DNA of 64,000 nucleotides from Persephonella sp. KM09-Lau-8 (GTDB lineage: Bacteria > Aquificota > Aquificia > Aquificales > Hydrogenothermaceae): positions 1,240,001 through 1,304,000 of the forward strand of contig NZ_JNLL01000001.1 of the NCBI RefSeq assembly GCF_000703085.1, in the 5' to 3' direction. The notes under the pieces are model-generated. The model was given only the letters and a program-made list of their open reading frames with translations. It searched no databases and was not told the origin of the DNA. The translations under genes and the position numbers were made by a program. Each line of letters starts with the position of its first letter. Position 1 is the first letter of the stretch. This document shows, one piece after another, positions 35,954-43,194 of the stretch.

Positions 35954-36441
35954 AAAGAAACTGGCCTTTTATAATTATCACAGGGGTTGGAATATTTTCC
36001 ACACTAATTTTTCTATATATTTTTGTTTATGGCCTTGCTACACGGACAGTTAAATCTTCCGTCTTACTGGAAAAAGCCTACCCCCATGTAAAACCTCAAG
36101 AATACATAAATTTACTGCAAAGAAAAGCAAAAGCAAACAATCTGAAAATCATACAACTTCGTTCAGATAGAGGATACTTCCTTATTCAGATGATAAATGA
36201 AAAAAAACTTGATGAGGTCCTATCAATAGCACCACAGGTTGCACCACTTGCGATTGTAAATCTTGTGATATATGACCTTGGAGATGGCACAGGAATAGTA
36301 GGAAATAATCCTTACGTATGGGATATAGTTATTGATAGTCCCAAAATAGATGAAATAGCTGAGGATTATGCCAATGAACTTTCTGATATACTTGATAGTA
36401 TTTACTGGGATTATAAAAAAGAACAGGAGCTACTTAAATAA
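35950..36441 (+). CDS. Membrane-anchored protein, possibly DUF302-like, 163 aa
   Basis: An N-terminal helix (FIIITGVGIFSTLIFLYIFVYG) anchors a domain of about 125 residues with RKAKANNLKIIQLRS, IAPQVAPLAIVNLVIYDLGDGT and ANELSDILDSIYWD. The order of a helix, a conserved cofactor-like strand and an acidic tail is like DUF302 proteins. Start overlaps the preceding small protein; the stop shares a base with the next ATG (TAATG), so three genes are coupled. Probably periplasm-facing. Confidence 0.68.
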   Translation: MKRNWPFIIITGVGIFSTLIFLYIFVYGLATRTVKSSVLLEKAYPHVKPQEYINLLQRKAKANNLKIIQLRSDRGYFLIQMINEKKLDEVLSIAPQVAPLAIVNLVIYDLGDGTGIVGNNPYVWDIVIDSPKIDEIAEDYANELSDILDSIYWDYKKEQELLK

Positions 36442-36788
36442 TGCCATATATTGTAAGAGTCCGTAGAGAATTTCAGGCAGCCCATTATTTAACCGATTAT
36501 CACGGAAAACCTGAACCCCTTCATGGACATACATGGGAAGTAGAACTTTTTATCCGTGCGGATAAACTGGATAAAGGTGGAATGGGATTTGATTTTGTAG
36601 AAATACATAAATTTTTAGATGAAATACTCCCAGATTATCAATGTATGAATGATATCTATGATTTTTCTCCAAGTGCTGAAAATGTTGCCAGATATATATA
36701 CAACAAAGTAAAAGAAAAATATCCCACCCTCCAGAAAGTTGTAGTGTGGGAAACAAAACATGGTGGCGCTGAATACTTTGAAGAATAA
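36441..36788 (+). CDS. 6-pyruvoyl-tetrahydropterin synthase / QueD-family protein lacking the usual Cys
   Basis: 115 aa T-fold enzyme. Zinc-binding His are in FQAAHYL and LHGHTWEV, and the catalytic-relay Asp and His are in DFVEIHKFLD and ETKHGGAEY. The catalytic Cys expected four residues before HGH (CxxLHGH) is Pro in PEPLHGH, with Glu one residue later. Variants with Glu in this region (PTPS-III type) work in folate synthesis instead of queuosine; here the Glu is shifted. QueF is at 42814, so a queuosine role is still possible. Function therefore open. Confidence 0.85.
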   Translation: MPYIVRVRREFQAAHYLTDYHGKPEPLHGHTWEVELFIRADKLDKGGMGFDFVEIHKFLDEILPDYQCMNDIYDFSPSAENVARYIYNKVKEKYPTLQKVVVWETKHGGAEYFEE

Positions 36789-36791
36789 ATA

Positions 36792-36819
36792 TTGACAGGG
36801 ATTATCCCAGTAATATATT
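36792..36819 (+). promoter_or_regulatory. Likely sigma-70 promoter of the KaiC-like operon
   Basis: TTGACA (36792-36797), 16-base spacer, TATATT (36814-36819). It begins 3 bases after the PTPS-like gene stop and lies 35 bases before the KaiC-like ATG, giving a short 5' leader with AAGGAGG. Confidence 0.7.
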
Positions 36820-36853: not shown

Positions 36854-37753
36854 ATGGCTGAAGATCCAAAATTTCATGAAGAGGGAGAAAGAGTCCACGA
36901 GTATCGGGAGCCCAAGGTAGTCAAAGAAAGTATCTTCACAGGTAGCAAAGCACTTGAAAAAGCCCCAAAAATCTACGGAATTCCCACAGGAATTGAAGGA
37001 TTAGATGATTTATTCTTTATTGTAGAAAGTGAAAATGGAAAAATTGTTAAAAAATCTTTAGGCGGAATTCCTGCTTACTCAGTTTTCAACATCACCGGTG
37101 TTAATGATACCGGTAAATCCCTTATGGTTGAACAATTCACTGTGGAACAGGCAAGAAAAGGTCATAAAGTAGCCTTTATCACAGTTGAATCTCCGGCAAA
37201 TTTTGTGATTGCTTCAATCAAAATGAGAGCAGCTGCTATGGGATATAACTTTGATGAATTTGAGGATAATGTTATTCTCATAGACGCTGCATCACACTCC
37301 ACACTTAGAGAGAATATCCCAGACCTGCTGGCAACCCTTGCCTATGCAATCAAGACCTATCATATCAAGTTCACAGTAATTGATTCTATAACAGGGCTGT
37401 TTGAAAACAGGGAAATGATGGCAAGGGGAATTGTTAGAAGGCTATTTAACTTCATGAAAAAATGGTATCAGACAGCACTCTTTGTATCCCAGAAAAGAAG
37501 CGGACATGAGGAGCTAACGGCTGAAGCAGCCGGTGGATATGCTGTTGGGCATATAGTTGATGGAACAATGGTTCTGGCAAAAGAGCTTATAGACAGCTCA
37601 TTTAAAGCAAAGCTATACAAAAAAGAAATTGGTGAAATAGTAAGATTATTTAGAATTGACGGCTGTAGAATGTCCGGCCACGACACAAGGACACATTATC
37701 TCGAAATAACAGAAACAGGACTGGTCAGGATATTAGGTCCAATTGGAAAATAA
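36854..37753 (+). CDS. Archaeal-type KaiC/RecA-fold ATPase
   Basis: 299 aa single KaiC domain. Walker A GVNDTGKS near residue 87, Walker B FTVIDSITGLFE near 169, and a RecA-like tail with EIVRLFRIDG and RTHYLEIT. It resembles archaeal KaiC-domain families of the AF_0351/AF_0795 type, which are found beside a dedicated helix-turn-helix partner, and exactly such a partner follows 27 bases later. The active-site Ser/Thr pair of circadian KaiC is not evident. ATG 36854 follows AAGGAGG by 6 bases; an upstream TTG-type start at 36818 is unlikely. Likely signal-transduction or repair regulator. Confidence 0.88.
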   Translation: MAEDPKFHEEGERVHEYREPKVVKESIFTGSKALEKAPKIYGIPTGIEGLDDLFFIVESENGKIVKKSLGGIPAYSVFNITGVNDTGKSLMVEQFTVEQARKGHKVAFITVESPANFVIASIKMRAAAMGYNFDEFEDNVILIDAASHSTLRENIPDLLATLAYAIKTYHIKFTVIDSITGLFENREMMARGIVRRLFNFMKKWYQTALFVSQKRSGHEELTAEAAGGYAVGHIVDGTMVLAKELIDSSFKAKLYKKEIGEIVRLFRIDGCRMSGHDTRTHYLEITETGLVRILGPIGK

Positions 37754-37780
37754 AAAATTAAATAAAAAGGAGGGCTGAAA

Positions 37781-38437
37781 ATGGTAGTATTAATCACTTC
37801 AAAACCGGTAGACGAGCATGACCTTGAAAATTTAGTTGGAAGAGTATTTTTCAAAGCAATAGACTTACTGGGAGGACTACATAAACTTGCTGAATACAGA
37901 ACATTAACATGGCTGCCATCACTGGCAAGGGCAGCATTTGCAATTGTTCTCCGTGAAGAATATCTAAAAACAGAAGAAGAAATCGCAGAAATTGTAGGTC
38001 TCACAAGAAACACAGTAAGAAACATTCTCAGAGCTGACCCAAACGCTGCAATGTTTAAAATTGAGCATATGGATGAGCTCACAAAAGAAGAGAAAAAAGA
38101 ACTGAGAGTTCATACTGCCGGTGGGGTTGCAAAACTGGCTTATAAACTGGTCAAAGAGGGTGAAGAAGCTCAAACACTACTTGAGTTCTGCAGAGAGATG
38201 TCTGCTAAAGCTGTTCAGGTATGTGAAGCACCATGGGCTTACACAGTGCTTAAGCACAGCAAAGGTCTCAAATATCCAGTAGAAAGCCCAGAAGCATTAA
38301 AAGAAAAATTAGATGGAATAACCATAAAAGGCCTTTCAGCTTCAGAAGTAGCTGATGGCTTATCTTATCCAATCAAAAACCCAGCACAACTTCTCCATGA
38401 AATAAAAGAATTCTTACAAATGAAAGGTATAGAATAA
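37781..38437 (+). CDS. KaiC-partner regulatory protein with helix-turn-helix
   Basis: 218 aa. The N-terminal half has YLKTEEEIAEIVGLTRNTVRNIL, a helix-turn-helix resembling the TIGR03879 near-KaiC domain; the rest (residues 100-218) is helical with REMSAKAVQVCEAPWAY and a C-terminal PAQLLHEIKEFL helix. Such proteins regularly accompany archaeal KaiC-like ATPases. Starts ATG behind GGAGGG and is followed at once by a strong terminator, so the two genes form a closed bicistron. May read the ATPase state and bind DNA (inference). Confidence 0.82.
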   Translation: MVVLITSKPVDEHDLENLVGRVFFKAIDLLGGLHKLAEYRTLTWLPSLARAAFAIVLREEYLKTEEEIAEIVGLTRNTVRNILRADPNAAMFKIEHMDELTKEEKKELRVHTAGGVAKLAYKLVKEGEEAQTLLEFCREMSAKAVQVCEAPWAYTVLKHSKGLKYPVESPEALKEKLDGITIKGLSASEVADGLSYPIKNPAQLLHEIKEFLQMKGIE

Positions 38438-38446
38438 AAAATCAAA

Positions 38447-38470
38447 GCGGGCTTAAGCCCGCTTTTTTTT
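38447..38470 (+). terminator. Rho-independent terminator after the KaiC-like operon
   Basis: GCGGGCTTAAGCCCGC followed by eight T residues. It separates the KaiC pair from reverse gyrase, whose GGAGAGG binding site begins about 15 bases later. Confidence 0.93.
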
Positions 38471-38493
38471 ATTTCAAAGCACAGGAGAGGAAA

Positions 38494-41400
38494 ATGGAAA
38501 GCAAAGTTATACCCCTTATATACAAAAATATGTGTCCAAACTGCGGAGGAGATATTACTTCTGAAAGGCTCTTTAAAGGTCTTGTGTGTGAAAATTGCCT
38601 TCCTGATGAGGTTCCACGGGAGGATTTATGTGATTTCTTAGGCTACGGAAAGTTCCTTGATGTTTGCCAGCTATGGAGCAAAGTCAGGGACTTTAAGGAG
38701 TTTTTCAGACAAATCATAAAAAATGATTTATGGTCTATACAAGAAACATGGGCAACAAGATTTTTCCTGAATATCTCTTATGCATTACTTGCCCCAACAG
38801 GAATAGGAAAAACCACATTTGGACTTGTTTTATCAAAATATCTGAAAGACAAAGAAAATAAAAAAGCATATTTAATCTTCCCTACCCAGATGCTTGTTAA
38901 TCAGGCACACGAAAGACTGGTATCCTTCGGCGTTCCTGAAGAGGATATCCTGGCATACACTTCAAAATTTGCCAAAACAAAGAAAAAACAGGAAGAATAC
39001 AAAGAAAGAATAAAGAATAATGATTTTAAAATTCTCCTGACCACAACAATGTTCCTTTACAAAAATATAGATATTATCCCCAAAGGAGAATATGGCCTTG
39101 TTTTTGTTGATGATGTTGATAGTATCCTGAAATCTGCAAAAAATATAGATAAAGTTCTTATGCTTCTTGGATTTACACAGGAAGACATTGATTACACATT
39201 AAAATTCATAACATTTAAACAAAATCTATTCAAAAAAGGACAACCAACAGAGGAAGATTTTGAATTATTCCAGCACTGGCAGGCAAAAATCCAGAAAATA
39301 GCAGAAAAAAGAAAAGGTGTTCTTATAGTTTCCTCAGCAACATCAAATCCAAGGTCAAAAAGGGTAAATCTATTCAGGGAATTACTTGGTTTTGAAGTAG
39401 GAAGACCATCTTTAACTCTGCGAAATATAGAAGATGTGTATGAAAAACCTGAAAAAGTATGGGAAAAAAGTATTGATGTAATTAAAAAACTTGGGAAAGG
39501 TGGACTGGCATTTTTATCTTCATCAGAAACAAGGGAAACACTGGAAAAATATGTGGAATTTCTAAACCAGAACGGCATTTCGGCAGTATCATATGAAGAA
39601 CTTATGGACAGGCTTGATGAATACAAAGAAGGCAAAATTCAGGTTGCCGTCGGATTTGCAAGCTACAGAAATCCTCTTGCAAGGGGAATTGACCTGCCTG
39701 ATGTTATTAGATATGCAGTTTTTGTCGGTGTTCCAAAACTCCAGTTTAATATCAGATTTGAGGAAGAGTTTATTCATCTTTATTACTTTATGTTGTCCCT
39801 AACCCCATTCCTTGCAAGGAAAAAACTATTAGACCCTCTGGAAGTAAAACAGCTCTATGATTACATAAACTACCTGAAGATATACACCTTTATCCCTCCT
39901 GAAAAGCTTGAGCCTGAAAAACTGAATAAAATGCGTCAGATACAGCAATATGTCAAAAAACTGATAGAAAAACCTGAGATTTTCTCAGCTGTCCAGCAAT
40001 CTCCAGAAATCACCCTTAGAAAAGAAGGAGATACATTTATACTAACAACTGCCGACGTAACAGGTTATATTCAGGCTTCAGGAAGAACTTCCAGATTATA
40101 TGCAGGCGGTTTAACAAAAGGACTGGCATATCTGCTGGTAGATGATGACAAAGCATTTTATTCTCTGCAGAAAAAGGTAAGATGGTTCAGTGAGGATATA
40201 GAGTTTAAGCCCGTCGAAGAGGTTAATCTTGAGGAAATTTTAAAGCAAATTGATGAAGACAGAGAAAAAGTCAAAAAAGTCCTGTCTGGAGAATTCATAA
40301 AAGAAGAAAGACAATCATTCCTTACAACAGTTGTTATTGTTGAATCTCCCAATAAAGCAAGAACAATAGCAAACTTTTTTGGAAAACCACTTAGAAGAAA
40401 ACTAAAAAATCTGGATGCTTACGAAATAGCTATCGGTGAAAGATTTCTGACCATCGTTGCAAGTAAAGGACATGTTTATGACCTGAATAAAGAAGAATAT
40501 TACTTTGGTGTAAAGAAAAACGGAGAGCTTGTTCCAATATTTGAGCCAATAGATGAAAGCAAAAACAATATCATCCAGAGTATAAGGGAACTTGACCTTG
40601 AGGTTAATGAGATATTCATTGCCACAGACCCTGACACAGAAGGAGAAAAGATTAGTTATGACCTGTTTTTAAACTCTCTGCCCTATAACTACAATGTAAA
40701 AAGGGCTGAGTTCCACGAAGTTACAAAAAGGGCGTTTTTAGAGGCAATTAAAAACTACAGGGATTTTGATGTAAATCTGGTAAAAGCCCAGCTTGTTAGA
40801 AGGGTTGCAGATAGATGGATTGGATTTACCATTTCCCAATATATCCAGAAAAAACTCCATAGACACTGGCTATCGGCAGGTAGAGTTCAGACCCCTGTTT
40901 TAGAATGGGTAATTAATAGAACAGACGAAGCAAAACAAAAAATTGCAATAGTAAGAGTTGAAATAAACGGATATCCATTTGAGTTCCAGTTTGAAGACAG
41001 GAAAAAGGCCAAATGGTTCTATGACCATCTTGAATTCGTAATAGTCAAAGCCCTTGAAAAAGAAGAGGAACACCTGTTTGTTAAACCATTCACCACAGAT
41101 GTTATGCTGTCTGAAGCTGCACGAGAGCTTAGATTTTCCCCTCAGGAAACAATGCAGCTGGCACAGGACTTATTTGAGGCAGGACTTATCACATACCACA
41201 GAACAGATAGTATAAGGGTTTCTGAAGCAGGAGTATTCGTTGCAAAAGAATACATTACCGAAAACTTTGGTGAGGAATACTTTAAACCAAGAACTTTCTC
41301 TACAGCCGGCGGAGCCCATGAATGTATCCGACCTACAAGACCTATGGATGCTGATGATTTAAGGTCAATGATTTATACAATGAACCTGCAGGGAATAACA

Positions 41401-41997
41401 AATAAACATATCCGCCTTTATGACCTGATATTCAGAAGATTTATGGCTTCACAGATGAGGGAAACGGTAGTTGAAAAAACAATTTATGATATAAGAGCTT
41501 TTGATGAGGAATTACAGGAAGGAGTTTTAACAAGAATAATTGAACATGGATATGACCTGATAATGCCTGTTAAGGTTTATTCAATTCCAGAAGGAAAGAT
41601 AGATGTAAAAGATAAAAAATCATATCATCTAAAGCCTAAAGTCCCTTACTATACATTTGCAACACTTATTCAAGATATGAAAGAAAAAGGAATAGGACGA
41701 CCTTCAACCTATGCAGTAACAGTGCAAAAACTTTTAGACAGGCATTACATAATAGAAAGAAGGGGATATCTCTTCCCAACCAAACTGGGAAGAACAGTAA
41801 TGGCTCTAATTAAGAAAAGGGAAGATATATACAAATTTGTCAATGAAAACTACACAAAACAGCTTGAAGAAATTATGGACAAAGTAGAAAAAGGAGAAGC
41901 AGATTATCAGGAAGAACTGGAAAAACTGTTTAATGAACTAAAAGAGAAAAAGCTATTTTTTAAAGTGGAACTGGGGAAATATGCCTATGAAGAATGA
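38494..41997 (+). CDS. rgy: Reverse gyrase
   Basis: ATP-dependent positive supercoiling enzyme, a marker of hyperthermophiles. Order: N-terminal zinc finger (Cys14, 17, 32, 35), a helicase-like module with Walker A APTGIGKTT (about 100-108) and VFVDDVDSIL (about 203-212), then the topoisomerase IA module starting VVIVESPNKARTIANFF (about 612), FIATDPDTEGEKISYDL, and the catalytic Tyr901 in GLITYHRTDSIRVS. IGRPSTYA and the C-terminal topo part are intact. 1167 aa in one chain is the usual size; a second zinc finger before the topo module is not obvious. ATG follows GGAGAGG. Confidence 0.98.
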   Translation: MESKVIPLIYKNMCPNCGGDITSERLFKGLVCENCLPDEVPREDLCDFLGYGKFLDVCQLWSKVRDFKEFFRQIIKNDLWSIQETWATRFFLNISYALLAPTGIGKTTFGLVLSKYLKDKENKKAYLIFPTQMLVNQAHERLVSFGVPEEDILAYTSKFAKTKKKQEEYKERIKNNDFKILLTTTMFLYKNIDIIPKGEYGLVFVDDVDSILKSAKNIDKVLMLLGFTQEDIDYTLKFITFKQNLFKKGQPTEEDFELFQHWQAKIQKIAEKRKGVLIVSSATSNPRSKRVNLFRELLGFEVGRPSLTLRNIEDVYEKPEKVWEKSIDVIKKLGKGGLAFLSSSETRETLEKYVEFLNQNGISAVSYEELMDRLDEYKEGKIQVAVGFASYRNPLARGIDLPDVIRYAVFVGVPKLQFNIRFEEEFIHLYYFMLSLTPFLARKKLLDPLEVKQLYDYINYLKIYTFIPPEKLEPEKLNKMRQIQQYVKKLIEKPEIFSAVQQSPEITLRKEGDTFILTTADVTGYIQASGRTSRLYAGGLTKGLAYLLVDDDKAFYSLQKKVRWFSEDIEFKPVEEVNLEEILKQIDEDREKVKKVLSGEFIKEERQSFLTTVVIVESPNKARTIANFFGKPLRRKLKNLDAYEIAIGERFLTIVASKGHVYDLNKEEYYFGVKKNGELVPIFEPIDESKNNIIQSIRELDLEVNEIFIATDPDTEGEKISYDLFLNSLPYNYNVKRAEFHEVTKRAFLEAIKNYRDFDVNLVKAQLVRRVADRWIGFTISQYIQKKLHRHWLSAGRVQTPVLEWVINRTDEAKQKIAIVRVEINGYPFEFQFEDRKKAKWFYDHLEFVIVKALEKEEEHLFVKPFTTDVMLSEAARELRFSPQETMQLAQDLFEAGLITYHRTDSIRVSEAGVFVAKEYITENFGEEYFKPRTFSTAGGAHECIRPTRPMDADDLRSMIYTMNLQGITNKHIRLYDLIFRRFMASQMRETVVEKTIYDIRAFDEELQEGVLTRIIEHGYDLIMPVKVYSIPEGKIDVKDKKSYHLKPKVPYYTFATLIQDMKEKGIGRPSTYAVTVQKLLDRHYIIERRGYLFPTKLGRTVMALIKKREDIYKFVNENYTKQLEEIMDKVEKGEADYQEELEKLFNELKEKKLFFKVELGKYAYEE

Positions 41998-42813: not shown

Positions 42814-43194
42814 TTATTTATTGTCTTCAGAAGATACGGTTATTATTGTTTTGACATTTCCCCTTGGATTCCAGTCCCCTATAACTTCTAAAAATCTCGG
42901 TTGAAGCAAATTATACAGATCATCATATATCTTGTTTGTGGCTTCCTCATGGGATATATACTGATTTCTGTATTTGTTCAGGTAAAGTTTAAGGGATTTC
43001 AGCTCAACAATATACTGATCAGGGATATATCTGATTTTTATTGTTGCAAAATCCGGATATCCTGAACGGGGACATAAACAGGTAAACTCAGGAAAGGTTA
43101 TATCAATTGTGTAATTTTTTTCTGGATTTGGGTTAGGCCATCTTTCTAATTTTGCTTCCTGTATTTCCTTTTCTCCATATTTTAACTGGCTCAT
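42814..43194 (-). CDS. queF: NADPH-dependent preQ0 reductase QueF
   Basis: 126 aa short (YkvM-type) T-fold enzyme that reduces 7-cyano-7-deazaguanine to preQ1 in queuosine synthesis. [14 protein letters not shown] holds the catalytic Cys and [21 protein letters not shown] is the QueF family motif. ATG is placed directly after the ispA stop, with GAGAGGTG inside the ispA end. The PTPS-like protein at 36441 is a possible earlier step. Confidence 0.95.

Follow-up and report, generated by a model that had tools for sequence, protein, structure and literature searches.

The closest described counterparts of the locus considered here are two protein families of thermophiles, thermo_KaiC_2 (TIGR03878) and near_KaiC_dom (TIGR03879, a probable regulatory domain), the latter named for its position near KaiC. 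Both are catalogued as hypothetical in function and under names that make no reference to reverse gyrase; the short TIGR03879 proteins are about 120–130 aa long. The RecA/KaiC ATPase fold with its Walker motifs is also found in the circadian KaiC of cyanobacteria, a double-domain kinase acting with KaiA/KaiB, and in archaeal ArlH, which works with the archaellum motor.

In Pyrococcus furiosus, the KaiC-domain protein PF1931 and the predicted regulator PF1932, which have consecutive locus numbers, are strongly heat-induced as additional targets of the Phr regulon (PMC10746257). By this description they may be likened to the pair treated below, although they are archaeal, unlike it, and the passages concerned in that paper do not tie them to reverse gyrase. 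Within the literature searched, it is the only paper that names both “reverse gyrase” and “KaiC”, in passages that leave the two unconnected. In the campylobacterium Nautilia profundicola, the reverse gyrase gene (rgy) is induced over 100-fold by heat (PMC2628731, where KaiC is not mentioned), and in our rgy tree the genes of vent Campylobacterota (Nautilia, Nitratiruptor) belong to the same large clade as the one studied here. The literature searched yielded neither a description of a KaiC–HTH–rgy arrangement in Nitratiruptor relatives nor a dedicated regulator of reverse gyrase.

Reverse gyrase is the hallmark enzyme of high-temperature life. The window analysed, a stretch of 64,000 nucleotides from the aquificote Persephonella sp. 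KM09-Lau-8, carries on its + strand a KaiC-like ATPase gene, a gene for a helix-turn-helix (HTH) partner and then rgy, which lies directly 3′ of the partner, as the preliminary description had stated. The features of this block are as follows:

36792–36819, + strand: sigma-70-type promoter TTGACA-N16-TATATT of the KaiC–HTH unit (11/12 consensus matches)
36854–37753, + strand: single-domain KaiC-like ATPase (TIGR03878), 299 aa, ATG start (462 bits)
37781–38437, + strand: helix-turn-helix partner (TIGR03879, near_KaiC_dom), 218 aa (128 bits; AlphaFold pLDDT 88.6)
37904–38035, + strand: putative HTH core of the partner, about residues 42–85 (weak HTH_23, sigma-70 region 4 and structural matches)
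38228–38428, + strand: putative MTH865/DUF2795-like domain at the C-terminus of the partner, about residues 150–216 (weak MTH865 match, alignment of long and short partners)
38444–38473, + strand: intrinsic terminator (GCGGGC stem and T-run) between partner and rgy (stem conservation)
38494–41997, + strand: reverse gyrase (rgy), 1167 aa, Hydrogenothermaceae type (TIGR01054, domains, tree)

The ATG of the KaiC gene at 36854 is preceded by AAGGAGGG. Its product matches TIGR03878 with 462 bits over positions 1–258 of 259 (curated cut-off 232) and the Pfam KaiC model PF06745 with 186 bits (E 7e-55). Walker A (GVNDTGKS, 37097–37120) and Walker B (VIDS, 37376–37387) are intact, as the preliminary description had read them, and both are conserved in 12 of 12 aligned relatives. 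The protein consists of one KaiC domain and belongs to TIGR03878; in contrast to the cyanobacterial double-domain kinase, it gives 31.8 bits against the tandem-domain circadian model TIGR02655 (cut-off 546), and it is far below the cut-offs of both the circadian KaiC and the ArlH models.

The partner gene follows after a 27-bp gap with a ribosome-binding site of its own, AAGGAGGG. The protein scores 128 bits against TIGR03879 (cut-off 65) and, lying beside a KaiC gene, is a member of that family. Both proteins of the pair score about twice the curated cut-offs, and the pair is the already catalogued thermophile KaiC-2/near-KaiC pair, TIGR03878 with TIGR03879. The profile matches of the partner are to HTH and near_KaiC models only, with the HTH at about residues 42–85, and it resembles neither KaiB nor KaiA in profile searches; on both points the earlier reading of the partner was right. 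The predicted structure (pLDDT 88.6) suggests a helical N-terminal part of DNA-binding type followed by a small C-terminal domain. The N-terminal part weakly resembles sigma region 4, DeoR and DnaA domain IV, the matches that VIA-align returned for it are weak and of a generic HTH or cyclin-like kind (Z about 5–6), and Foldseek gave no match to solved structures at E ≤ 0.001. The C-terminus, an addition relative to the short TIGR03879 partners, reaches 16.2 bits against MTH865, under the Pfam cut-off of 25, while related stand-alone tandem proteins exceed the cut-off of PF11387 (DUF2795); an alignment of long and short partners shows that this domain is missing from the short ones. Stand-alone proteins made of two tandem copies of the partner C-terminal domain are encoded in Aquificaceae (L230:4567-5049, − strand; L231:4485-4991, − strand).

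The promoter of the KaiC unit is kept in all compared members of the window's genus and in the next genus (G044). The terminator, a stem-loop at 38444–38465 followed by a T-run, is kept in 10 of 10 compared species of the genus with the same GCGGGC stem core and a variable loop, and the genome contains just two instances of this stem pattern. The closed bicistron with its own promoter and terminator, proposed earlier, is therefore borne out, with the qualification that the gap between terminator and rgy is tiny. From the T-run to the rgy start there are about 25–45 nt in the window's genus, too short for a separate rgy promoter, so that transcription of rgy would start either at the KaiC promoter, with read-through, or within the partner gene, where a weak candidate promoter (9/12) is located at 38034; with such an internal promoter, read-through would be unnecessary. 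On warming from 37 to 73 °C, the predicted energy of the terminator stem weakens from −14.6 to −6.1 kcal/mol, and at 85 °C it is down to −3.3; this loss of stability is general to GC stems and not peculiar to this terminator. A palindrome in the KaiC promoter, GGGATTATCCC, was considered as an operator and rejected, as it is not conserved in the genus. Queuosine-pathway genes stand on either side of the three-gene block (QueD-like, 36441–36788; QueF, 42814–43194).

The product of rgy matches TIGR01054 with about 1260 bits, over the cut-off, and is a single chain with zf_Rg, DEAD, Toprim and Topoisom_bac domains, which places it among the reverse gyrases. In related genera, rgy is found at a galE–rgy–metK–rpsT site. 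The window's genome retains galE, along with three neighbours, and metK–rpsT at two other places that lack rgy, and the genes upstream of the KaiC–HTH pair are the same as in another genus (g6). These remnants demonstrate that, in the genus of the window, rgy was relocated from an ancestral galE–metK site to a place directly behind a pair that was already there; the earlier suggestion that the three genes could have come together is not supported for this lineage. The alternative that a Persephonella type passed on a finished three-gene cassette in one transfer was rejected, since the galE–rgy–metK order, which other genera share, is the ancestral state and that of the window a derived one. 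The ancestral site in Hydrogenothermaceae is marked by a gene for a 400-aa S-adenosylmethionine synthetase beside rpsT (L254:6072-7695, L194:255-1899), which looks archaeal-type from its sequence.

The preliminary description held pairs of this kind to be known mainly from archaea. A scan of 85,000 species genomes gave 270 confirmed relatives, and the 80 of these 270 that were kept are mostly bacterial, coming from Thermomicrobium, Rhodothermus, Bipolaricaulota, Thermotogota, Aminicenantes and WOR-3, further from Acidobacteriota, Armatimonadota, Calditrichota, Thermodesulfobacteria and Campylobacterota; the archaeal members among them are three DPANN MAGs. In a KaiC tree that covers bacterial and, among archaea, DPANN sequences, the copy from the window has its place among the bacterial ones, in a clade to which the DPANN sequences do not belong. 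The family is thus spread over many thermophilic bacterial phyla, contrary to the earlier view, and an archaeal origin of the window's KaiC copy is not supported by this tree. The three DPANN MAGs (L108, L128 and L133) each have the pair and rgy within one genome. A single-sequence query found no relative in viral contigs.

At most loci outside Aquificota, the partner gene lies directly 3′ of KaiC. Inter-phylum distances among 50 genomes that have KaiC, partner and rgy, compared with 2000 within-phylum permutations, correlate between KaiC and partner at 0.78 (0/2000 permutations as high) and between KaiC and rgy at 0.085 (1370/2000 as high). By these sequence distances, KaiC and its partner have one shared history, and rgy generally a separate one. 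In Aquificaceae and in a further family (f4), KaiC and partner are often apart; in one Aquificaceae genome, which groups with Hydrogenobaculum, a TnpB-like gene stands between them (L049:10709-12238, + strand). Among Campylobacterota, the genome G416 carries an additional, divergent KaiC-2 gene that has no partner gene next to it (L185:6358-7206, + strand).

The order KaiC–HTH–rgy is present in all species of the window's genus with an intact locus; most genera of Aquificota have rgy at a great distance from the pair. The same order recurs in 7 of 11 KaiC-bearing genomes of Campylobacterota, where in the linked cases the stop codon of the partner touches or overlaps the likely start of rgy, a GTG or TTG. 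In the rgy tree, the Campylobacterota sequences form the sister group of the whole Hydrogenothermaceae clade and are not nested in the window's genus, so the arrangement arose independently there. A third case is a Hydrogenothermaceae genome (G008) whose rgy is of a different lineage, sister to Thermodesulfobacterium, and lies divergently beside the KaiC–HTH pair. The juxtaposition of pair and rgy therefore has at least three independent origins. An SDR gene behind rgy in both Campylobacterota and Hydrogenothermaceae was rejected as a shared neighbour, the two being paralogues at about 27% identity.

The distribution of the genes among genomes matches as well. In Thermodesulfobacteriota, KaiC occurs in 10 of 198 genomes and rgy in 10 of 198, and these are the same 10 genomes, with the genes at unlinked places; a long partner stands beside KaiC in 9 of the 10. 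In the Campylobacterota class (298 genomes), all 11 genomes with KaiC are within the 14 with rgy. Of 121 sampled Aquificota, 104 carry KaiC, 106 the partner and 109 an rgy that passes the cut-off; KaiC and rgy are associated here too, though less strongly (99/10/5/7; Fisher p = 1.6e-4, kinship ignored), in part because of incomplete MAGs. Partner length follows rgy too: in 38 genomes of other groups, of which 18 have rgy over the cut-off, rgy accompanies the long partner in 13 cases and is missing in 4, and for the short partner the figures are 2 and 14 (Fisher p = 4e-4, kinship ignored). Thermus composti has both KaiC-2 and rgy.

Repeated re-linkage together with an identical genome distribution argues against chance. 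Under a simple adjacency model with 30–80 independent arrangements, three or more juxtapositions would be expected with a probability of about 1e-5 to 2e-4, to be taken as an order of magnitude. The preliminary description had equated a pair scattered relative to rgy and trees of independent origin with chance linkage. The scattering is indeed the rule in most Aquificota, and KaiC–rgy distances are uncorrelated (0.085), but the three independent juxtapositions and the striking co-occurrence speak against that conclusion, and a linkage beyond coincidence is supported.

What this linkage serves is a question of graded likelihood. A functional link between the pair and rgy, by regulation or co-regulation, has in our estimate nearly even chances. 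By analogy with the KaiC family, the KaiC-like ATPase, driven by ATP and probably forming a ring, would switch the activity of its DNA-binding HTH partner, and heat-adapted bacteria would use the two as a regulatory unit, with reverse gyrase either among its targets or controlled alongside it. In the window's genus, rgy would most likely be transcribed in part by read-through of the terminator from the KaiC promoter; its output would then follow induction of the pair or leakage of the terminator, for instance on heating, and read-through might increase with temperature if the stem loosens. Campylobacterota have reached the same coupling independently in the form of an operon, with the partner stop touching or overlapping the rgy start. 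We count in favour of the link the co-inheritance of KaiC and partner, the three juxtapositions, the co-occurrence and a conserved terminator that leaves no room for a promoter, and take the heat induction of PF1931/PF1932 and of Nautilia rgy as leads from the literature. Against it we count the uncorrelated KaiC–rgy distances, the great separation of the genes in most Aquificota (in many of which KaiC is parted even from its partner), the weak promoter candidate inside the partner gene, the occurrence of the pair without rgy in many moderate thermophiles, the three species Thermotoga maritima, Methanocaldococcus jannaschii and Sulfolobus acidocaldarius, which have rgy but no KaiC-2 over the cut-off, and the failure to find a shared operator. 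As to the last, a shared motif upstream of KaiC and unlinked rgy did not outperform shuffled sequences in the 14 genome pairs compared, and no CIRCE-like heat-shock sites were found upstream of KaiC or rgy. An inverted repeat, TGCAA-N6-TTGCA, is present upstream of KaiC in only 3 of the 7 linked Campylobacterota and was rejected as an operator. A stronger version, in which the pair is a dedicated ATP- or heat-responsive control module of rgy, with the long partner C-terminus associated with rgy, the operon repeatedly rebuilt and a heat-sensitive terminator in the window's genus, is rather unlikely.

The main rival to regulation of rgy is shared heat adaptation, which we hold to be plausible at clearly less than even chances. 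Pair and rgy alike would be genes of high-temperature life that come and go with growth temperature and are carried by the same donors, and their linkage would come from co-transfer or insertion near other heat genes with no mutual regulation. The confinement of pair and rgy to thermophilic clades in two phyla is what such a common ecology predicts, as is their co-occurrence in Thermodesulfobacteriota, where the genes are far apart. KaiC, partner and rgy are all absent together from a complete Aquificaceae genome (G019) and from one that is 99% complete (G051), and of the 38 genomes from other groups, about 20 possess the pair but no rgy. However, ecology fails to predict an intragenomic move of rgy exactly behind the pair, or touching and overlapping partner and rgy genes reached separately in Campylobacterota.

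Plain chance adjacency in the window's genus, kept by descent while the true targets of the pair lie elsewhere, is improbable. The scattering of pair and rgy in most Aquificota genera would suit it, as would the unrelated neighbours in other lineages (a PilB-type ATPase in f4, a PP2C phosphatase in the genera g11 and g14, and TamB in f2), but it has to contend with three independent juxtapositions and near-perfect co-occurrence. In family f2, it is the TamB gene that lies behind the partner.

Some of these neighbours have suggested another role: by analogy with ArlH and archaeal KaiC hubs, the pair might regulate cell-surface or signalling functions (type IV pili, phosphorylation), with rgy a bystander. 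Such a role is quite improbable: the f4 genomes examined have the partner directly before a PilB/T2SSE ATPase gene, and two Aquificaceae genera have KaiC overlapping with a gene for a PP2C phosphatase, yet these neighbours are lineage-specific, each involving one member of the pair. In f4 (L064–L068, L076), the partner gene stands alone, directly before genes for a PilB/GspE-type ATPase and DUF190. The PP2C-type gene lies directly 3′ of KaiC (L051:10866-11591, + strand; L052:9424-10155, − strand) and overlaps the KaiC end by 4 nt in L051; this adjacency in two genera hints that KaiC may be phosphorylated. Finally, a circadian or other KaiC-type clock, which the KaiC fold and intact Walker motifs might bring to mind, is scarcely credible for a single-domain protein with 31.8 of the 546 bits of the circadian model and a partner like neither KaiA nor KaiB.

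Returning to the regulation of rgy, the near one-for-one sharing of genomes in two phyla and at least three relocations make the pair a testable candidate regulator. The regulatory tie of the KaiC–HTH pair to DNA topology is our hypothesis, under which the pair is a concrete candidate for the missing connection of DNA topology with heat or energy state. If this is true, a widespread KaiC-like family, so far named as hypothetical only, would gain a likely function.
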